NCBI GenBank assembly: GCA_029247365.1
Contig: JAQWLJ010000033.1
Span: 1-64,000, forward strand
Direction: 5' to 3'
DNA: 64,000 bases
Source of the DNA: Acidimicrobiales bacterium
Lineage (GTDB): Bacteria > Actinomycetota > Acidimicrobiia > Acidimicrobiales > Aldehydirespiratoraceae
Part shown: one piece after another, positions 16,973-26,422 of the stretch
Layout of the letters: each line of letters starts with the position of its first letter
How positions within the stretch are numbered: the first letter of the stretch is position 1
Notes under the pieces: generated by a model
The model's database searches: none
Seen by the model: only the letters and a program-made list of their open reading frames with translations
What the model was told of the DNA's origin: nothing
Program-made: the position numbers and the translations under genes

Positions 16973-17974
16973 TCAATAACCAGTCACGCCGTGATACGGC
17001 CGACCAGCCGCCTCGGCCTCCTCGTAGATCCGCATGAAGTTCTCACCGAAGGGATCCTGGCCCTGCAGCGGCATCGCCGCCCGCCGGATGGTCCAGTCGT
17101 GGGGCGCTAGGTCGTCGGCGATTGCATAGTTGCGGGCCGCGCCGGACTGGTCGTTGCGGTGACGCAGCTCGTTCGCGATCCGGAACCGAAGCCGGGCCTG
17201 CTCCTCGTCGGCGCTGAGGTCGCCGACAGACTCGCGAATCTCGTCGGCGGTCAGTTCGGTCGTGTCGTCACGCACCCAGGCCCGGACCCGATCATGCTGC
17301 TTGTCAGAGTCGATACCGGTGAACTCGCGGAACAAATCGGTCCCGAACGCACTCCAGTTTGGGTGCACGATGCGATCGTTTTCATCGATCATCACGACGG
17401 TCGGCACGTTCGAGATTGCGTACAGCTCGGTGAGCAGATGGTCAGGATCCATCAGGACCGGAAACGTGATGTCCTGAGCGAATTCGCGAACGGCATCGGT
17501 GTTCTCATCGATTGCCGCTGCGATGACGACAAAATCGGTGTGACCCTCGGCGTGAAGTTCGTTTTGCAGTGCCTGCCACCCGGGCAGGTCAAAGGCACAA
17601 CCTCACCAACTCGAGAAGGCGACAAGCAGCCGCTTCTTACTGCGGTGGTCGGACAGCGCCGTGAGTCCACCATCAAGATCAGGTAGTGCGAAATCGGGGG
17701 CGACGAGATCAATGAGCGCCGAGCGACGGCGTCCCCGGTCGGCCCCCATAGCCGAGAGCCCGGACTCGCTGTCGATCGCAACCGGCCGGTCGAGCAGCTC
17801 AGCAAGGATGACAAGATCGAAACCGGCGTCACCGACGAGCGCGCCTCGGTCGGGCACGATCACGCACGTGTCGTCTTGGCAGAGTCCCTCCGGCTTGAGC
17901 TCCCAGCCCAGGTCGGCAAGCTGCGCTCGGGTGAGCGTTCCCGTCGATTCGAGGATTGCCGTGTCGTTGGCCAT
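16973..17974 (-). CDS. ResA/TlpA-like thioredoxin-fold selenoprotein (UGA read as Sec)
   Basis: The frame from the ATG at 17974 runs to 16973 with a single in-frame TGA at 17603-17605 (codon 124). Just before it the protein reads LLVAFSSW and just after it GCAFDLPGWQALQNEL, so the UGA sits at the first position of a W-x-G-C redox site, where relatives have Cys or Sec. N-terminal residues 1-85 form a separate domain with GWELKPEGLCQDDTC; LVAPDFALPDLDG opens the thioredoxin fold; ISNVPTVVMIDENDRIV carries the cis-Pro; the C-terminus is a helical domain ending near AMPLQGQDPFGENF. I recall a family described as ResA-like with a WAxxUGC motif. The ATG overlaps the MFS stop by one base, so the two are probably cotranscribed. 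Sec insertion is inferred; no sel genes are in this window. Confidence 0.82.
17572..17588 (-). promoter_or_regulatory. Bacterial SECIS-like hairpin
   Basis: On the coding strand CCTGCC-CGGGT-GGCAGG forms a perfect 6-base-pair stem with a five-base loop containing three G. The stem starts 14 bases after the UGA and the loop lies about 20-24 bases after it. Bacterial SECIS elements follow the UGA directly and need G near the 5' side of the apical loop; spacing and loop fit. Confidence 0.6.
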
Positions 17975-19248
17975 TAGGCGATCGTAGCCCGATTGTCGTC
18001 GGGGGACGGAGGGGCGGCAAGGACCCAGAACACGACACCGAACGCTGCGGTTACACCGAGGATCGTGAAGCCGAGTTGGTAGTTGCCAGTCGAGTCGGCG
18101 AGCACGCCGGCGAGGACTGGACCAGCGATGGAGCCCATCGTGACAATGATCTGTGACCAGCCCATGATCGATGCGAAAGCGGTGGAGCCGAAGTAATCGG
18201 CTCGGATCGCCTGCATCTGGGGACCACGAACTCCCCAGGCGATGCCGTGCAGCACGACGAATACGCCAACTGCGGCGACGTGTTCGACCCACGCCAGAAT
18301 TATCAGCGCAGCACCGTGCATGAGCATGGCGATGCCTGCGATCAGGCGCTTGTTCATGCGGTCGCCCAGGTAGCCGCCGAGGGCGGTGCCGACGATCTGG
18401 AAGAGCGGCACGAGGCCAGCGATGAGCGCAGCCCGTCCGGCCGAGTAATCACGATCCTCGGTTAGGTACAGCGCAAGGTGCGCCATACTTGACGACACCA
18501 CCAGGAGTGCGGCTCCATGGCCAAGGGAGATCATCCAAAAGCCCCGGGTGCGCATCGCCTCACCTGCGGTGTAGTGACGGTCGGTGACGCCCTCGGCCTT
18601 GGGTTCGGCCGCCGTGTCGACCTCGAGGAGACCATCCATCGGTTCGCCGTAATCCTCCGGTGTGCGGTTCGCGATCGCGGCCGCCCACCACGCAGCGCAC
18701 GAGAGAATCGATCCCGCGATGATGATGGTGGGTCGCCAACCGATTCGAGCGAAGCCCCAGACCAGAATCGGGGCGCAGAGACCGCCGAAGGCGAAGCCCA
18801 TCGTCAGAATCGACATGGCTTGAGCTCGCCGCCGTTCGAACCAGCGGACTGTTGCTGACGTAATCGTGAGGAAGCCGATCAGGCTCATCGCCAGCGCAAG
18901 GATCAGCATCGCAACAACGAACTCGGCTTGTGTGTCAGCCCAGGCGATAGCGAGGAATCCGATCATGCCAATGACAGCGCCGGCCCGCATCACCTTCTTG
19001 ATGCCCTGGATGCCGATGGCTCGGCCTTGGATCGGACCGAAGACGGCGGTCTCGGCGCGGGTGCCCGCGTAGACGAACGACAGGAACGATTTCGACCAGC
19101 CGAACTGATCGCGTAGCTCCACAGCCATGTTGCCGTAGCCCTGTACCCAGATCATCGACTGAAGCGACCACACCACCGAGTTGGCGCCGACGACGCGCCA
19201 CCCGGTGTACGCGCGGCGTTTGGGTTGAGCAGGCACCGCGTCGGTCAT
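17974..19248 (-). CDS. MFS transporter (OFA/MCT-like)
   Basis: This 424-residue major facilitator has twelve predicted hydrophobic segments and the usual central loop (about residues 190-225, with PEDYGEPMDG). Loop 2-3 reads FGPIQGRAIGIQGIKKVMRAG, and GGYLGDRMNKR in the second half is the standard MFS loop motif. Similarity is to monocarboxylate or oxalate/formate-type carriers, so an organic anion is a fair guess for the substrate. Start at 19248 (MTDAVPAQ) puts the first helix close to the N-terminus; the longer frame is unsupported. It lies between the Rieske gene and the selenoprotein gene on the same strand. Confidence 0.88.
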   Translation of the reverse strand: MTDAVPAQPKRRAYTGWRVVGANSVVWSLQSMIWVQGYGNMAVELRDQFGWSKSFLSFVYAGTRAETAVFGPIQGRAIGIQGIKKVMRAGAVIGMIGFLAIAWADTQAEFVVAMLILALAMSLIGFLTITSATVRWFERRRAQAMSILTMGFAFGGLCAPILVWGFARIGWRPTIIIAGSILSCAAWWAAAIANRTPEDYGEPMDGLLEVDTAAEPKAEGVTDRHYTAGEAMRTRGFWMISLGHGAALLVVSSSMAHLALYLTEDRDYSAGRAALIAGLVPLFQIVGTALGGYLGDRMNKRLIAGIAMLMHGAALIILAWVEHVAAVGVFVVLHGIAWGVRGPQMQAIRADYFGSTAFASIMGWSQIIVTMGSIAGPVLAGVLADSTGNYQLGFTILGVTAAFGVVFWVLAAPPSPDDNRATIA

Positions 19249-19258
19249 CCATGCGACT

Positions 19259-19486
19259 CTAGAAGCCCACCCCCCGACGATCCTCACTCAACGCACGCTG
19301 GAATTCGGCGGGCACTTCAGCTGCTTCCCCGCCGTTGGCAATGACTCCTGTGAACACGTCCATGAGCAGTTCGGAGATGGAGCGTCGTTCGCTCTCGCTG
19401 CGATCGCATCCAACCAGTGGGTGGCGCGAGGACCGCAGCCCGACACCACCGCGCCACCGGAGCGACGACGGACTGCCCCATCGCAA
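19259..19486 (-). pseudogene. Unidentified ORF fragment between Rieske and MFS genes
   Basis: The 293-base gap holds a minus-strand frame whose last 45 codons look protein-like (SERRSISELLMDVFTGVIA, then AAEVPAEFQRALSEDRRGV) while its first part is arginine-rich shadow sequence. No clear start or ribosome site is seen. It may be the C-terminal remnant of a lost gene in this operon, or a small real protein. I cannot assign a family. Confidence 0.3.
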
Positions 19487-19541: not shown

Positions 19542-20590
19542 TCAGTGACCTACTGCGCTCAGATAGCGATGAAAGTCCACGATCGTGCCTTCACGGTCGT
19601 CGTCAGCAAGTGGACCGGCATAGTCCTGCGCACTCGGTGCCACGAGATTGTGGTGGATGCGTTCGAGAACGGCCTGGTCCTCACCATTGATCTCCCGCCA
19701 GAGGTCAATCGTGGCGTCGATGATCTCGTCGGGGCAGTCGCGGAACGCCGAGACGCTCCATCGGATGAGCGTGCGATCGATCGACAGGGGCAACACGAGG
19801 AAGGAGGCACAGAACGTGGCGTTCTGACAGGCCACCTGAGTCGGGAACCGCTGCCACAGAAACGAACGACCCCGCTGCTCGTCGGTGAGCGCGGGCTCGC
19901 CGGGCGTCGTCGATCGCACGCCCGCAGGAAAGGTGGAGTAGTAGCTCGTGAACTCCGGGCCCGACGGGCCTTTCGAGGCAAGCCGTGATGGGGTAAGCGG
20001 ATGCAACGAGTCCCGGTGCACGACCGAGAGATGCGAGCCCTCCATGAAGTTTTCGACCATCGCCTTCCAGTTGCAGGCCCAGATCTCGGTCTCGGCGTGG
20101 CAGAAGCGCATCTCTGCCGTGTTGAACGGCGCAAGCTCGGTGTTGAACACCGAAATCGATGGCAGCGGCGCAGGATCGTCGGTGACAGCCACGGCCACGA
20201 AGCCGTGCTCATCAACCGCAAGGGGCCACGCGGGCAGCCGACAGTCGGCAACCGTTGCTGGATCCGTGAACGGGGCCACGCGCAGCTCGCCGTTCACCGC
20301 ATACGACCACGCGTGATACGGGCACGTGAATGTGCTGGCCGTACCTTCGCCGTCGGCGACCGGCGTCCCCCGATGCCGGCAAATATTCGAGAGTGCCCGC
20401 AGTTCACCATCGTCACCTCGGACCAGCAGCACCGGCTCGTCAAGGATCGTGATGGTCAAGAAGTCACCTGGCGCGGCAAGTTAATCGGCGCGGCCGACAC
20501 AATCCATCCGGGGCGCAGGATCGTCTCGATCTCGTGTTCGAGGCGCGCTGGGTCGGTTTACGCCCGACCGGGAAGCGTTCTGCGAGCCAC
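19542..20590 (-). pseudogene. Rieske-type aromatic/amine oxygenase alpha subunit, N-terminus disrupted
   Basis: The frame from 20459 to 19542 encodes a Rieske [2Fe-2S] domain (CRHRG ... CPYHAW) and a mononuclear iron domain (ENFMEGSHLSVVHRDSLHP) like those of GbcA/CntA-type oxygenases. The N-terminus is broken. Reading upstream, a plausible start GTG at 20590 gives ARRTLPGRA, then TAA at 20558-20560 where homologous proteins have Tyr before TDPA. The frame goes on as TDPARLEHEIETILRPGWI, and a one-base shift near 20480-20482 is needed to reach PGDFLTITILDEP. A TTG at 20459 could start a shortened protein with the cofactor sites intact. I treat the gene as probably inactive, or affected by sequence errors. 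It begins 8 bases after mmsA. Confidence 0.7.
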
Positions 20591-20597
20591 CGCTGGC

Positions 20598-22094
20598 TCA
20601 GTCGTTGCGAGGGAACCCGAGATCGACTGTCGAGGTCGACGGGTCGGGCCAGCGCGTGGTGATGGCTTGAGGCTTGGTGTAGAAGCGCACGCCCTCTGGG
20701 CCGTACATAGCCGTGTCGCTGAAGATCGAGTCCTTCCACCCACCGAACGAGTGGTAGGCGACTGGAACCGGGATCGGCACATTGATTCCCACCATGCCGA
20801 CCGGCGCCTCTTCGGTGAACCGGCGAGCAGCTCCGCCGTCGCGCGTGAAGATGGCTGTGCCGTTGCCGTATGGGTTGTCTTCGAGGAGCTTGATGGCGTC
20901 GTCGAACGTCGCCATGCGGACCACCCCGAGGAGCGGGCCGAACACCTCGTCTTGGTAGACGGTCATGTCGGGGGTGACGTCGTCGAGCAGTGTGCACCCG
21001 AGGAAGTAGCCGTCACCATCGAAGTGGGCGTCACGTCCGTCGAGCACGACGGTGGCCCCGGCATCGGCGCCAGCGCCAATGTAGGAGGCGACGCGGTCGC
21101 GAGCCTCCCGGGTAACGAGCGGACCCATTTCCGATGACGGTTCCATACCATCGCCGATGTTGAGCGCACGCGTTCGCTCGGCGATTGCGACGACCAACCG
21201 ATCGGCAGCATCGCCAACCGCCACAACGACCGAGATCGCCATGCACCGTTCGCCGGCCGATCCGAAGGCGGCGGACACCGCAGCGTCGGCTGCGAGACCA
21301 ATGTCGGCATCGGGTAGCACCAGCATGTGGTTTTTGGCACCGCCGAGCGCCTGGACCCGCTTGCCGTGCTCGCTGGCGGTTCGATGGATGTACTGAGCGA
21401 TTGGGGTCGACCCGACAAAGCTCACCGCCTTGACGTCGGGGTGTGTCAGGATGCGGTCGACGGCGGTCTTGTCACCGTTGACGACGTTGAACACACCGTC
21501 AGGGAAACCGGCCTCGTGGATGAGTTCGGCGAGGAAGAGGGCTGACGTTGGGTCCTTCTCGCTCGGCTTGAGGATGAACGTGTTCCCGCAGCCAAGCGCG
21601 TTGGGAATCATCCAAAGCGGCACCATCGCGGGAAAGTTGAAGGGCGTGATCCCGGCCACCACACCGAGCGGGCGCCGCACCGTAGTGACGTCAACGCCGG
21701 TCGAAACCTGGTTTGAGTGCATGCCTTTCAACATCTCGCCGATGTTGCAGGCGAACTCGATGTTTTCGAGGCCGCGAGCGACCTCACCCATCGCATCACT
21801 GTGCACCTTGCCGTGCTCGGCGGTGATCTTGGCGGCCAACTCGCTGGCGTGCTGATCGACGAGATTGCGCAGGTTAAACATTGCCTTGGTGCGGGTGGCG
21901 ACCGACGAGTGCCGCCAGTCCTGCCAGGCCGCGTGGGCGGTGGCGACGGCATGGTCGACCTCGTCGACCGATGCCAGGGCGATTGCGCCAGTCTGGGTAC
22001 CGGTGGCGGGGTTGAACACTGGCGCCGTATTTCCCGACGTGCCTGTGACGGCCTGGCCCCCCACGAAGTGTCCGAGTTCGGTGATCTCGTTCAT
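20598..22094 (-). CDS. mmsA: CoA-acylating methylmalonate-semialdehyde dehydrogenase
   Basis: MmsA oxidises malonate or methylmalonate semialdehyde with NAD and CoA, releasing CO2 and giving acetyl-CoA or propionyl-CoA. The 498-residue protein shows the family marks: GITPFNFPAMVPLWM, LKPSEKDPTSALFLAEL, FVGSTPIAQYIH, GAKNHMLVLPDA and the catalytic Cys in GSAGERCMAIS. That Cys context, with Arg before Cys, separates MmsA from ordinary aldehyde dehydrogenases. A Shine-Dalgarno (AGGAGA) precedes the ATG, and the aminotransferase gene ends 17 bases upstream, so they form an operon for transamination followed by oxidative decarboxylation. Confidence 0.95.
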   Translation of the reverse strand: MNEITELGHFVGGQAVTGTSGNTAPVFNPATGTQTGAIALASVDEVDHAVATAHAAWQDWRHSSVATRTKAMFNLRNLVDQHASELAAKITAEHGKVHSDAMGEVARGLENIEFACNIGEMLKGMHSNQVSTGVDVTTVRRPLGVVAGITPFNFPAMVPLWMIPNALGCGNTFILKPSEKDPTSALFLAELIHEAGFPDGVFNVVNGDKTAVDRILTHPDVKAVSFVGSTPIAQYIHRTASEHGKRVQALGGAKNHMLVLPDADIGLAADAAVSAAFGSAGERCMAISVVVAVGDAADRLVVAIAERTRALNIGDGMEPSSEMGPLVTREARDRVASYIGAGADAGATVVLDGRDAHFDGDGYFLGCTLLDDVTPDMTVYQDEVFGPLLGVVRMATFDDAIKLLEDNPYGNGTAIFTRDGGAARRFTEEAPVGMVGINVPIPVPVAYHSFGGWKDSIFSDTAMYGPEGVRFYTKPQAITTRWPDPSTSTVDLGFPRND

Positions 22095-22111
22095 GACTAG
22101 TTCTCCTCGAT

Positions 22112-23419
22112 TCAGCGGTTGGCGTTGATGTCGTCGATGGCCGCAAGCATCGCCCGGACGCCTTCGTCCATCTCTGCCTCAGTGACGTTAAGCATTGGGG
22201 CGATCCGAATCACGTTGCCGTACAGACCGCCCTTTCCAACGAGCAGGCCGTGGGCTCGGCAACGCTCAAGGAACGCACCCGCAGTGCCCGCATCGGCTTC
22301 GTTCGACCCGTCGTGGACGAACTCGATCGCCTGCATGAGGCCCTTGCCGCGGAGTTCGGCCATCCATTCGTTGGCCGCTACCGCTGCCTCCAGACCGGCG
22401 GCGAGCTGCCGACCGCGAGCCAACGCATTTGCCTGCATGTCCTCATCTTCGAGCGCCTGCAGCGTCGCGTTTCCAGCCGCAGCCGACAGCGGGTTGCCGC
22501 CGAATGTCGAGAACGAGGTGACCTCGATGGTGTCCATGATTTCGGCTCGGGCCACCACGCCAGCAAGCGCTGCCCCGTTGCCGACACCCTTCGCGAACGT
22601 GAGCATGTCGGGGACCGTGTCGTGGGCCTGATAGCCCCAGAAATGCTCGCCAGTGCGACCCCACCCGGTCTGAACCTCATCGGAGATCAGCAGGATGCCG
22701 CGGGCGTCGAGTTCCTTCTTGAACGCACCAAAGAAGCCGTCAGGCGGCGTGGCGAACCCACCGACACCCTGGATGGGCTCAGCGATCAGACATGACACAT
22801 CGCCGGCCGACATCATGTCGAGCACCTGGGCAAGGTCGTCGACACACGCGTCGGTGAAGGCAGCGTCGTCGAGATCGCGGAACGGGCTGCGAAGCCGGTA
22901 GCCGCCTTGAACAAAGTTTACGTCGAGCCCCGAGATCGAGGTCGAGGACCATGAGCTGTGCGAGGTGATTGCCTGCGAGGTGAACGAGCGGCCGTGGTAG
23001 CTGTTGCGCATCGCCAGGACTTGGTTGCTCTTGCGGAAACTGGTGGCGAGCAGCAGGGCCGTGTCGTTGGCCTCGGTGCCCGACGCGGTGAAAAAGACAC
23101 GGGCGTCAGGAATGCCTGAGAGCCCGGTAATTCGCTCGGCAAGCTCGATCATGGGCTCGTTGAGGTAGAGCGTCGACGTGTGCATCACCTTCTCGGCCTG
23201 CTGGGCGACCGCAGCGCAAACCTTCGGATGGTTGTGACCGATCATCGTGGTGAGCACGCCACCGAAGAAGTCGAGATAGCGGTCGCCGCCTGCAGTGAAG
23301 ACATAGCTGCCCTCACCCCGATCGATCGAGATCGGCTCGGCGAACATCGGCTTGACGAACGACGGAAGGACGGCCCGGTATCGCTCGAGCAGTTGCGCAT
23401 CGACAGAAGAGTTCTCCAT
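22112..23419 (-). CDS. Class III (omega) aminotransferase
   Basis: This PLP-dependent fold type I aminotransferase of 435 residues removes an amino group from an omega-amino acid or amine. Motifs are FFTASGTEANDTALLLA (cofactor phosphate region), the SYHGRS segment, ISDEVQTGWGRTG (Asp contacting the PLP ring) and TFAKGVGNGAALAG with the Schiff-base Lys. STFGGNPLSAAA completes the site. Given the linked mmsA, beta-alanine or 3-aminoisobutyrate is the likeliest substrate; 4-aminobutyrate or an alanine-glyoxylate type is also possible. The start at 23419 (MENSSVDAQ) is chosen because the longer frame runs into the regulator operator region. Confidence 0.92.
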   Translation of the reverse strand: MENSSVDAQLLERYRAVLPSFVKPMFAEPISIDRGEGSYVFTAGGDRYLDFFGGVLTTMIGHNHPKVCAAVAQQAEKVMHTSTLYLNEPMIELAERITGLSGIPDARVFFTASGTEANDTALLLATSFRKSNQVLAMRNSYHGRSFTSQAITSHSSWSSTSISGLDVNFVQGGYRLRSPFRDLDDAAFTDACVDDLAQVLDMMSAGDVSCLIAEPIQGVGGFATPPDGFFGAFKKELDARGILLISDEVQTGWGRTGEHFWGYQAHDTVPDMLTFAKGVGNGAALAGVVARAEIMDTIEVTSFSTFGGNPLSAAAGNATLQALEDEDMQANALARGRQLAAGLEAAVAANEWMAELRGKGLMQAIEFVHDGSNEADAGTAGAFLERCRAHGLLVGKGGLYGNVIRIAPMLNVTEAEMDEGVRAMLAAIDDINANR

Positions 23420-23440
23420 GCCGGAATCATCGCCCGTATT

Positions 23441-23481
23441 TTGATTGCATACAACCACATCTTTGTTCTATACAAAGGTCT
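23441..23481. promoter_or_regulatory. Operator/promoter of the MocR-type regulator and divergent aminotransferase operon
   Basis: The 62-base divergent gap holds two direct ATACAA repeats at 23449-23454 and 23470-23475, exactly 21 bases apart (two helical turns). The second lies in an inverted repeat CTTTGT-TCTAT-ACAAAG (23461-23477). Direct repeats are typical of MocR/GabR sites. TATACA at 23469-23474 could also be the -10 of a leaderless regulator mRNA. Confidence 0.5.
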
Positions 23482-24840
23482 GTGAGCGTGAACCTGCAGA
23501 CGATTGCAGCCCAGATCGGCGGCCGTACCGCAGCCGATATCGCGGCATCCATCGCTCGAGCGATCCGTGCCGGCGAGATCGCTTCCGGCAGCTCTCTCCC
23601 CACGGTTCGGAACCTTGCTGACGCACTCGATATCAGCCCGAGCACCGTGTCTGACGCTTGGCGCACGCTCCGCCACTACGGGCTGATCGAGACCGATCGA
23701 CGACGAGGTACCACCGTGCGCGCCAATCGGCCGTTCGGTAGTGAGCGCTGGTGGCACGTCCCCGTCGCCCCGGGAACGCTCGACCTCGACCTCAGCACTG
23801 GCACACCCGACCCCGCCCTGCTTCCCGACCTCAGCGCGGCACTCGGCCGCGTGCGGCTCGACCACCAGGTGACGAGCTATCTCGATCGGCCATTGCTCCC
23901 CGCGCTCGAGGAAGAACTCCGAAGTCGCTGGCCCTTCGATGCCGCGGCCATCACGATGCTCGACGGAGCCCAAGACGCTCTCGACCGCATCATCGCCATC
24001 ACGATCGGGCTGGGCGACCGAGTCATCGTTGAGACGCCAACCTTCCCGCCTCTGCTCGACATGCTCGAGTTAGCCGGTGCCGCGATCATCGGTGTGCCGG
24101 TCGATGCCGAGGGGCTCGATCCCACCGACCTCGCGACCGCCCTCGCCGAGCCAGCCCGAGCGATCTTCCTGCAACCCCGGGCCCATAACCCAACCGGCGT
24201 AGCACTCACGACCACCCGAGCGTCAGCCATCGCCACACTCCTCGAGCCAACCACGACACTCATCGTCGAGGATGACCACTCCGGTGACGTCGCCGGCATC
24301 CCGCTTGTGAGCCTCGGCCGGTGGCTGCCGGATCGCACGATCCACATCCACAGTTTCTCCAAGAGCCATGGCCCCGATCTTCGCCTCGCAGCCGTCGGCG
24401 GTGCAGCTGACTCGATCAGCGCCATCGTGCGGCGCCGACAGCTTGGGCCGTCGTGGACCAGCCGCCTGCTCCAGCAGGTCCTTCTCGCATTGCTCACCGA
24501 TCCGCATGCACAGGCATCCGTGGCGGCGGCAGCCGACGTGTACCTCGACCGTCGCCGGGCCCTCGGGGCCGCACTGGAGGATCGCTACCTCGGAATCGGC
24601 CCGCTCGGGACCGGCCTCAACCTCTGGGTCCCCGTCGCCGACGAGCAGTCGACAGTCGTCGCGCTTGCCGCCCTTGGTGTGGGCGTTGCGCCAGGAAGGC
24701 CGTTCGACGTCACGCCGTCGGCCTCCGGTCATGTTCGGGTAACCATCTCAACGCTGGATGAACCAACCCAACTCGCCGATGCGATTGCTGCTGCGGCAAC
24801 TGCCACTGATGCAGGCTACGGACCCACGAGTCCCCGATAG
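23482..24840 (+). CDS. MocR-type GntR/aminotransferase fusion regulator
   Basis: This is a 452-residue two-domain transcription factor. Residues about 5-75 are a GntR winged helix (GSSLPTVRNLADALDISPST, then DRRRGTTVRAN). Residues about 95-440 are a PLP fold type I domain with HNPTG, a VEDDHSGD aspartate and the PLP lysine in FSKSHGPDLR. MocR proteins sense PLP plus an amino compound. The divergent aminotransferase-mmsA operon is the probable target, and the shared gap carries direct repeats. The start is GTG at 23482 or GTG at 23488; there is no ribosome site, which suggests leaderless translation. Confidence 0.92.
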   Translation: MSVNLQTIAAQIGGRTAADIAASIARAIRAGEIASGSSLPTVRNLADALDISPSTVSDAWRTLRHYGLIETDRRRGTTVRANRPFGSERWWHVPVAPGTLDLDLSTGTPDPALLPDLSAALGRVRLDHQVTSYLDRPLLPALEEELRSRWPFDAAAITMLDGAQDALDRIIAITIGLGDRVIVETPTFPPLLDMLELAGAAIIGVPVDAEGLDPTDLATALAEPARAIFLQPRAHNPTGVALTTTRASAIATLLEPTTTLIVEDDHSGDVAGIPLVSLGRWLPDRTIHIHSFSKSHGPDLRLAAVGGAADSISAIVRRRQLGPSWTSRLLQQVLLALLTDPHAQASVAAAADVYLDRRRALGAALEDRYLGIGPLGTGLNLWVPVADEQSTVVALAALGVGVAPGRPFDVTPSASGHVRVTISTLDEPTQLADAIAAAATATDAGYGPTSPR

Positions 24841-24841
24841 C

Positions 24842-24861
24842 GGCTGCAGCGAACCGCAGCC
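24842..24861. terminator. Hairpin after MocR-type gene
   Basis: GGCTGC-AGCGAACC-GCAGCC, a perfect 6-base-pair stem two bases after the stop codon, lies between the convergent regulator and aldehyde dehydrogenase genes. It could serve both directions. Confidence 0.4.
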
Positions 24862-24936
24862 ATCTGCTCACTGGTGACCGATGGCTCCGACCGGTACGGC
24901 GTCATCGACGGACCGTCCCAACCCACGGGCCGCCCG

Positions 24937-26358
24937 CTACCAACTCGCTGCGATGTACTGCGTCTCACAGAACTCGAAGATGCCCTCATGCGCACCTTCG
25001 CGACCCAAGCCCGACTGCTTCATGCCACCAAATGGCGCGGCCGGATCCGACATTGCACCGCGGTTGATCCCGACCATGCCGGCGTGGATCCGCTCCCCCA
25101 CGCCCATCGCCCGGGCAACATCACCCGAGTAGACATATGCGGCGAGACCCATCTCGGTGTCGTTCGCCCAATCGATCACCTGATCGGTGTCGGTGAACGG
25201 GATGACCGGAGCGACCGGACCAAAGATCTCCTCGCGGGTGATGGGCGACGCCATCGTGACATCACCCAACACCGTCGGGGCATAAAAAAAGCCTGGGCCG
25301 TCGAGGCGGGCTCCACCGACCGCGGCGGTGGCACCCGCCGCGAGCGCACCTTGCACGAGGCCATCGATCGTCTCGATGGCACCAGCGTTGATCATCGGGC
25401 CGCACGTGACACCGTCGTCCATGCCGTTGCCGACCTTCACCGCCCCCATGGCGGCGGCCAGCTTCTCGGTGAACTCGGCTGCGATGTTGCCGTGCGCGAA
25501 CATCCGGTTGGCAGCAGTACACACCTCTGCGGAATGCCGCATCTTGGCGACCATGGCGCCCTCGACCGCCGCGTCAAGATCGGCATCGTCAAACACGACG
25601 AAAGGCGCATTGCCACCAAGCTCCATGCCGACCTTCAGAACCCGGTCGGCACATCGCTTGAGCAGGACCCGCCCGACCTCGGTCGAACCGGTGAACGACA
25701 CCATGCGGGTCGCGCTGTGTTCGGTGGCCGCGTCGAACCACGAGCCCGACGAGGCGGTCGGCACCACGTTGACCAGCCCAGCCGGCACGCCGGCCTCCTC
25801 GAGCAGCTCGGCGATCCGCAACGCAGTCAGTGGGGTCTCCTTGGGCGGCTTGATGACGCATGCGTTGCCAGCTGCCAGGGCGGGCGCGACCTTGCGCGTG
25901 ATCATTGCGGCCGGGAAGTTCCATGGCGTCACCATCACCACAACGCCGACTGGCGGATGGTGGACGATGATCTTGTTGGCCCCACCCGGCGCTGTCTTGA
26001 TCGTGCCGTCGATGCGCACCGCCTCTTCGCTGTTCCAACGGAAGAACTCGGCTGCGTACGCGATTTCACCCTTGGCATCACCGAGTGGCTTGCCGTGCTC
26101 GAGGGTGATCAGGGTGGCGAGTTCGTCGGTGTGGTCGATAAGTGTTTGCCAACACGACCGCAGGACCTCGGCTCGGACCCGAGGCGCAGTCTGCGCCCAC
26201 GAGCGCTGCGCCTGGTCGGCCGCCTCGACCGCCGCGGTTGCCTCGGTTGGGCCTCCGGCCGCAACGCGGGCGATTTCGTCGCCGGTCGCCGGGTTGGTCA
26301 CCGCTACGCGGTCTGGCCCGTCGGACCACACACCGCCGATCAACATCTGCGTCTGCAT
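24937..26358 (-). CDS. NAD(P)-dependent aldehyde dehydrogenase (succinate-semialdehyde type)
   Basis: This 473-residue aldehyde dehydrogenase has TPWNFPAAMITRKVAPALAAG, the coenzyme-binding FTGSTEVGRVLL, the catalytic Glu in MELGGNAPFVVFDDADLD and the catalytic Cys in SAEVCTAANRMF. The motif order and FGGMKQSGLGREG ending are those of the GabD-like subgroup that oxidises succinate or other semialdehydes. Compared with the usual GQ-x-C, the SAEVC context is unusual but the Cys is present. Start at 26358 (MQTQ) or 26346 (MLIGGVW). Together with the nearby aminotransferase operon it may clear aldehydes from amine degradation. Confidence 0.88.
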   Translation of the reverse strand: MQTQMLIGGVWSDGPDRVAVTNPATGDEIARVAAGGPTEATAAVEAADQAQRSWAQTAPRVRAEVLRSCWQTLIDHTDELATLITLEHGKPLGDAKGEIAYAAEFFRWNSEEAVRIDGTIKTAPGGANKIIVHHPPVGVVVMVTPWNFPAAMITRKVAPALAAGNACVIKPPKETPLTALRIAELLEEAGVPAGLVNVVPTASSGSWFDAATEHSATRMVSFTGSTEVGRVLLKRCADRVLKVGMELGGNAPFVVFDDADLDAAVEGAMVAKMRHSAEVCTAANRMFAHGNIAAEFTEKLAAAMGAVKVGNGMDDGVTCGPMINAGAIETIDGLVQGALAAGATAAVGGARLDGPGFFYAPTVLGDVTMASPITREEIFGPVAPVIPFTDTDQVIDWANDTEMGLAAYVYSGDVARAMGVGERIHAGMVGINRGAMSDPAAPFGGMKQSGLGREGAHEGIFEFCETQYIAASW

Positions 26359-26422
26359 GGCAGAACGATGGCACGGACCGCTCCAATTACCAACCGTCAC
26401 AACGACGACCTAGTTGGTGAAC

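Follow-up and report, generated by a model that had tools for sequence, protein, structure and literature searches.

Two open reading frames (ORFs) on the minus strand of the window (the whole 64,000-nucleotide stretch of Acidimicrobiales DNA analysed here) lie in one frame and are parted by a single TGA. The locus thus raises the question of whether these are the two parts of one intact gene whose internal UGA codes for selenocysteine (Sec), or the pieces of a gene interrupted by a true stop. The original prediction had chosen the first possibility, and the coordinates, the motif and the 333-residue length that it gave were all correct (Table 1). Codon 124 was the sole internal stop of the gene, the only other one being the terminal TGA at codon 334. 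As had been anticipated for standard gene callers, the table-11 ORF list contained the gene as two same-frame pieces, ending at 17603 and 16973, and a single frame without further stop ran between them. The start methionine was found at the same place in seven of the eight aligned proteins of the genus. Relatives keep the UGA, a hairpin of the recoding type follows it and the genome holds the genes for selenium insertion; for these reasons we consider that the two pieces very probably make up one intact gene encoding a soluble, thioredoxin-like selenoprotein, and that UGA 124 is almost certainly decoded as Sec. Other split frames were searched for in the window by retaining TGA codons flanked on both sides by open frames with high third-position GC. 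By eye, none of the 21 codons retained looked selenoprotein-like, but this filter was insensitive, as the gene described here was itself absent from its 21 listings.

Table 1. Location of the features of the putative selenoprotein locus (positions in the window).
Feature	Position	Strand	Remarks
Putative selenoprotein gene	17974..16973	minus	333 aa + stop (334 codons); ATG 17974-17972, terminal TGA 16975-16973
UGA codon 124, probable Sec	17605-17603	minus	context LLVAFSSW-UGA-GCAFDLPGWQ
Cys126 codon, UGC-motif partner of Sec124	17597..17599	minus	invariant in 50/50 aligned relatives
SECIS-type hairpin CCUGCC-CGGGU-GGCAGG	17588-17572	minus	nt 15-31 after the UGA
N-terminal domain, residues about 1-82	17729..17974	minus	Cys32 + Cys37 (CxxxxC); alignment, model
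Thioredoxin/ResA-fold domain, residues about 83-240	17255..17728	minus	Sec124-Gly-Cys126; PF08534/PF00578, PDB matches
C-terminal helical part, TPR-like, residues about 243-322	17009..17248	minus	model helices, TPR profile matches
Upstream MFS carrier gene	17974..19287	minus	stop overlaps the ATG of the putative selenoprotein gene (TAATG)

The distribution of the internal TGA among relatives was examined at several distances. Within the genus (nine genomes, that of the window included), eight genomes held a match over the full length, interrupted by a single internal TGA that fell on the same aligned codon in every case, and the other seven proteins were 64–83% identical to the window protein. 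The copy of genus member G007 (L030, L029 and L027) was split across two contig ends and contained a run of Ns; its UGA stretch was not found and the sequence was unrelated after about residue 93, so that this genome is uninformative on the UGA. A second copy with one internal TGA was present in genus genome G001, which is 7% contaminated. In a sample of 296 genomes of the class, 76 gave a match at E <= 1e-30 and 50 had a full-length relative, of which 41 showed one internal TGA, nine an open frame and none any other stop. The remaining 26 genomes had weaker or partial matches. Thirteen stretches of this weaker type were fetched, at least five of them from genomes also counted among the 50, and they read as UGC-type paralogs. 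A scan of named genomes for relatives of the part downstream of the UGA matched at least 594 stretches, at least 559 of them encoding a relative. The best 80 were kept; judged by their titles, they came mostly from metagenome assemblies of Acidimicrobiia, Acidimicrobiales or Actinomycetota. Two of the loci, L163 and L166, are titled Acidobacteria and Euryarchaeota, yet their proteins fell among Acidimicrobiia in the tree, possibly through mislabelled bins or transfer.

Codon 124 could be read in 79 of the 80 named loci (L093 was cut off). Adding 35 loci taken from whole genomes (8 of the genus and 27 of the class sample) gave a set of 114 loci, in which the codon was TGA 97 times and TGC or TGT 17 times. 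Some genomes were present in both collections, and the distinct proteins numbered 105 (88 TGA and 17 Cys). The gene thus has the mark of a selenoprotein, an in-frame UGA where relatives have Cys. Further away, a sample of 296 genomes of the phylum gave 16 matches at E <= 1e-40, seven of them outside the class. Two of these seven relatives, G426 and G583, had further stops. The TAA of G426 lay upstream of the likely start, as did one TAG of G583. A second TAG of G583 (L197, G583:C1:422882-423952) was inside the gene, which also has the UGA; it stood in place of the Trp24 of most relatives (codon 35 in the matched stretch) and may correspond to a decaying gene, an error or something else.

A recent nonsense mutation, which would have left a pseudogene or allowed only a 123-residue N-terminal piece to be made, would also look like a single in-frame stop, and a stray in-gene TAG is present in the distant G583. 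The conservation described above nevertheless argues strongly against it. The TGA was at the same codon in eight genus genomes, down to 64% identity, it was the one internal TGA in 41 of the 50 full-length class relatives, with the downstream part conserved, and the codon was nothing else than TGA, TGC or TGT in the 114 loci. An unrelated codon or further stops in close relatives, which would have counted against a selenoprotein, were not seen, G583 being far from the window. We consider a nonsense mutation extremely improbable.

The sequence after the UGA was inspected for a recoding signal. The hairpin of Table 1 has 6 bp, a 5-nt loop (CGGGU) with a G at loop position 2, and a distance of 20 nt from the UGA to the apical loop; its energy was -10.6 kcal/mol when nt 13–33, a 21-nt piece, were folded alone. 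These values lie within the bSECIS criteria given in a 2026 review, namely a loop of 3–9 nt, an upper stem of 4–16 bp, 16–37 nt from the UGA, a G at one of the first two positions of the loop and an MFE of at most -7.5 (PMC13188914). When all 51 nt following the window UGA were folded, the minimum-energy structure was an overlapping alternative hairpin. The five inner pairs were all Watson–Crick in 72 of the 74 distinct Sec sequences, compared to a mean of 17.5 and a maximum of 28 in 500 synonymous recodings made with the genes' own codon usage, a null which overstates independence because the sequences are related. Among the Cys forms the five pairs were all present in 10 of 17 (null mean 4.7, maximum 10), and part of the hairpin signal is consequently ancestry or protein conservation. 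Codon choice inside the hairpin was biased. The codon that encodes glycine in 70 of the 74 Sec forms was GGG in 49, as compared to 17% of the glycine codons elsewhere in the genes; CTG was used in 70 of the 74 (31% elsewhere) and CCG in only two (42% of the proline codons elsewhere). Pair changes on both sides of the stem were observed in single Sec sequences: L085 (18/28), L148 (16/30) and, for the outer pair 15/31, L079. In register, 99% of the cells were paired in the Sec forms, versus 92% when the 3' arm was slid by -3 and at most 58% for the other five shifts.

These observations bear on a sequencing or assembly error in the place of a TGC or a TGG. The draft assembly of the window genome consists of 75 contigs (3.11 Mb, 98.2% complete), and some relatives do have TGC or TGT at the site. 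Assemblies of many different isolates and bins nevertheless agree on this TGA, and a hairpin-like constraint, weaker in the Cys forms, acts on the codons that follow. The probability of an error appears negligible.

The original prediction hinged on selB and selC being present in the genome. Both were over the cut-off, as were selA and selD, so that all four genes were found. On contig C51, selB scored 289 bits (cut-off 242), with a SelB beta-barrel domain matching Pfam, and adjoined selA (374 bits, cut-off 268); the same contig carried a tRNA-Sec with anticodon UCA (TCA) at 64 bits (cut-off 47). The selD gene was on contig C4 (360 bits, cut-off 125). Matches to selB at E <= 0.001 existed in every genome searched, because elongation factors match the model. 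Among 14 control genomes, the cut-off was exceeded by selB in two, selA in one, tRNA-Sec in five and selD in two. Within the genus, selB, selA and tRNA-Sec were over the cut-off in all nine genomes and selD in eight. The selD gene of the window genome (L188, G000:C4:70000-71400) has itself an in-frame TGA (TEFSHGAG-U-GCKLAPGEL), and one TGA was seen in the selD of the eight genus genomes where this gene was over the cut-off; SelD is therefore probably a selenoprotein too.

The presence of selA was then compared with the form of the codon. All 50 genomes of the class sample with a full-length relative were tested. A selA was present in 39 of the 41 UGA genomes, the two others being incomplete (G239, 79% and G226, 70%), and absent from eight of the nine open-frame genomes. 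Cys was read at the codon in five of these nine, those other than G254, G199, G266 and G038. The one open-frame genome with a selA was G214 (L182, G214:C418), whose relative is a Cys form. This selA was only 43–48% identical to three selA of the taxonomic family to which G214 belongs, themselves 68–80% mutually identical, and for this reason it looks foreign and probably results from contamination or transfer. In the 26 genomes with weaker matches, selA was present in 22 and the four without it were three open-frame genomes and G337, a genome 96% complete which has a UGA-bearing paralog. A second set consisted of 26 named genomes chosen from the best 80 (all 12 Cys and 14 of the 67 UGA loci). 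Here selA matched in none of the 12 Cys genomes and in all 14 UGA genomes, two of the 14 matches being split or partial and below the cut-off. In the 61 rows for which both the codon and selA were known, two of which repeat a genome (by coordinates, G365 is G009 and G356 is G151), 42 were Sec with selA, two Sec without, 16 Cys without and one Cys with selA. The Fisher test gave p 1e-11 with relatedness ignored, a value which overstates independence because the sequences are related. On a quick tree there were six changes between Sec and Cys, at least four of them forced by well-supported branches. Three independent pairs on well-supported branches were usable for selA and the codon; they mostly agreed and were too few for significance.

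A second residue varied with the form of the protein. Position 119 (codon 17618-17620), five residues before the site, was Ala in 84 and Val in three of the 87 distinct Sec forms, and Thr in none. In the 17 distinct Cys forms it was Thr in 13 and Ala in four, and the Cys forms with Thr belonged to several lineages. On the tree, Thr required five changes, and no independent pair went in the opposite direction, the pairs being too few for significance.

It might be thought that suppression or a changed code leads to the insertion of Trp, Cys or some other residue at the UGA, since the inserted residue is not visible from sequence alone. Such a reading is very improbable. The window genome has selA, selB, selC and selD, and selA was found in 42 of the 44 UGA rows and was missing from 16 of the 17 Cys rows. 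UGA also terminates the putative selenoprotein gene, and is therefore not reassigned throughout. Decoding as Sec agrees with the conserved UGA, the Cys relatives, the hairpin, the four sel genes and the way selA follows the UGA form, and the initial wording of "probable selenoprotein" can be kept.

The predicted protein is composed of three parts. The thioredoxin domain matched PF00578 (AhpC-TSA) at 43.6 bits (cut-off 26) and also Redoxin PF08534, and its PDB profile matches were of the ResA/TlpA/DsbE type. A structure model built with 50 sequences had a mean pLDDT of 95.4 and a pTM of 0.92; among the first 11 matches listed, it superimposed on DsbE-like and ResA structures with Z of 15.9–17.6 and rmsd of 2.2–2.7. 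In the alignment of 50 relatives, where column 124 is Cys by construction, the residues Cys32, Cys37, Trp123, Gly125, Cys126 and Pro191 were invariant. Pro191, within N(V/I)P, holds the place of the cis-proline of thioredoxins. In the comparison with the CEPC site of ResA, its first and second Cys were matched by Sec124 and Cys126, respectively, one residue being deleted to give UxC. The proposed location of the UGA at the first redox Cys was therefore right, but the second Cys comes two residues further and not three. The name "ResA-like" likewise suits the middle domain in its fold, as seen in PDB profile and structure matches, and less so the protein as a whole, with its UxC in place of CxxC and no anchor by hydropathy. 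No membrane anchor was detected in a scan limited to hydropathy: the highest mean over 19 residues was 1.31 for the window protein, as against 1.82 among the 50 relatives and 2.68 for the MFS neighbour. A cytoplasmic redox enzyme is most likely.

The N-terminal domain modelled alone had a mean pLDDT of 89.8. A structure search with this model gave no PDB match at E <= 0.001 and 741 weak matches up to E 10, which is no demonstration of a new fold. The C-terminal part gave TPR matches at the profile level and in up to 18 of the 50 relatives, and none with the window protein itself. The N-terminal domain could be imagined to have a life of its own, the 123-residue product being released at low selenium in a regulated dual output and having its own function. 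This domain is modelled confidently alone and has its own invariant pair of Cys. On the other hand there is no stop at the site in the 17 Cys-form loci, and both parts are therefore made together there; moreover, residues 83–123, which belong to the thioredoxin domain, would be expected to hang unfolded in the short product. We regard dual output as quite unlikely, and a full-length product containing Sec as the preferred reading.

We propose the following mechanism for this full-length product. SelB, loaded with Sec-tRNA, would bind the hairpin and UGA 124 would be decoded as Sec. The product is likely a thiol/selenol oxidoreductase, in which, by analogy with thioredoxin-fold enzymes, Sec124 would be the attacking group on a disulfide, a peroxide or another oxidised substrate. 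The intermediate would be resolved by Cys126, or by the invariant pair Cys32/Cys37. A redox pair with only one residue between its members makes a strained ring. Cys32/Cys37 is a plausible alternative resolver because the UxC pair would form such a ring. The idea that these two residues act as a relay is speculation from their invariance, and we put it forward tentatively. The TPR-like C-terminus could serve as a binding site for a partner. Still more tentatively, the proteins could be taken as an unnamed subfamily of three-part cytoplasmic enzymes, in which a UxC site would be served by an undescribed N-terminal CxxxxC domain acting as an internal relay, and in which several switches between Sec and Cys would have accompanied the Sec machinery, in part together with the replacement of Ala119 by Thr. 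The relatives form a natural series in which one enzyme occurs in Sec and in Cys versions. The form tracks the Sec machinery, and the series would be useful for asking what Sec brings to a UxC site.

The genomic neighbourhood had been put forward as a clue to the role of the protein, in view of the MFS carrier and of an amine-catabolism run. Next to the MFS gene, also on the minus strand, lies a catabolic run (19542-26400) with genes for a Rieske ring-hydroxylating oxygenase, two aldehyde dehydrogenases and a class III aminotransferase. An MFS gene adjoined the putative selenoprotein gene in 12 of the 114 loci, corresponding to only seven genomes, all of the genus (some present twice), and genus member G008 was without it. 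The nrdB gene was nearby in 14 of the 114 loci, in genus members and near relatives, many loci having short flanks. Clustering of crude neighbouring ORFs over 81 loci (the window and the 80 named loci) produced no cluster present in more than 18. The largest one (18 of 81) was enoyl-CoA-hydratase-like by sequence reading and in mixed orientation; enoyl-CoA-hydratase-like genes are common. Since the MFS pairing was seen only in the genus and no neighbour is common to the loci, the amine-catabolism context was dropped as an indication of function. The gene was not seen on mobile elements in the collections searched. By tblastn against plasmids and phages, no close relative was found: 28 plasmid records and one phage record matched, all below 60% identity, and in no record did a single place cover 80% of the query. 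In a scan of viral contigs, none of 33 pattern matches was confirmed.

Proteins of this general kind have been catalogued before. "Prx-like (UGC-containing)" selenoproteins were listed from ocean metagenomes in 2008 (PMC2398784) and again in a 2022 review (PMC9312934), and a "UGC-containing TlpA disulfide reductase family protein" appears in the 2026 review (PMC13188914). MDE0950781.1 and MBL6689828.1 are among the examples tabulated in the reviews; the likeness is one of description. In the passages available from these three sources, thioredoxin-fold selenoproteins of the UGC type are given no function. In the open-licence literature searched, neither "WAxxUGC" nor the combination of selenocysteine, selenoprotein and Acidimicrobi was found, and a term search in the accessible text of PMC5029168 and PMC12013277 returned nothing on the family of the window protein. 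As in the published UGC TlpA/Prx-like selenoproteins, a UGC motif is associated in the window protein with an AhpC-TSA (pfam00578) or TlpA-type thioredoxin domain. It has in addition the N-terminal CxxxxC domain and the TPR-like C-terminus, which the available descriptions do not name. The kind is thus already known and the window protein is new within it. Its genes may be misannotated in what is a widespread redox enzyme of Acidimicrobiia, because an ordinary ORF list cuts the gene in two.

The closest modelled family is NCBIfam NF041054 (WAxxUGC_long, "ResA-like WAxxUGC motif-containing protein"), the comparison with which had been suggested from the start. The window protein matched it over residues 16–216, at 176.3 bits, below the cut-off of 300. 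The alignment includes the thioredoxin domain and also the N-terminal CxxxxC domain (17729-17974), and stops before the C-terminal part. Four further members of the subfamily scored 181–254 bits and all 50 aligned members matched (best E 3e-75). Five of six paralogs scored 401–557 bits, the sixth 261. The motif W-A-x-x-U-G-C, as read from the family name, is replaced in the window protein by F-S-S-W-U-G-C; the first position was F in 38 of the 50 relatives and W in the other 12. The scanned members of NF041054 were UGA-containing and from the same class. The paralogs L169-L181, which belong to NF041054 or are near it, contain a UGA within the motifs WASWUGC, WSSWUGC or WAPYUGC and come from Acidimicrobiia; several of the genomes also carry a gene of the window type. 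As window-type proteins match below the cut-off and paralogs of this kind co-occur with them in several genomes, the sequences place the window protein in a sister subfamily of this modelled selenoprotein family. The likeness to SelD of the window genome is limited to an in-frame UGA followed by Gly-Cys, SelD being a selenophosphate synthetase of an unrelated family. ResA/TlpA thiol-disulfide oxidoreductases have a membrane anchor or an export signal. With ResA, TlpA and DsbE the window protein has in common the thioredoxin fold of residues 83–240 (Z up to 17.6), whereas it differs by a UxC in place of their CxxC (or a UxxC), by the lack of an anchor or export signal as judged by hydropathy, and by its extra N- and C-terminal parts.
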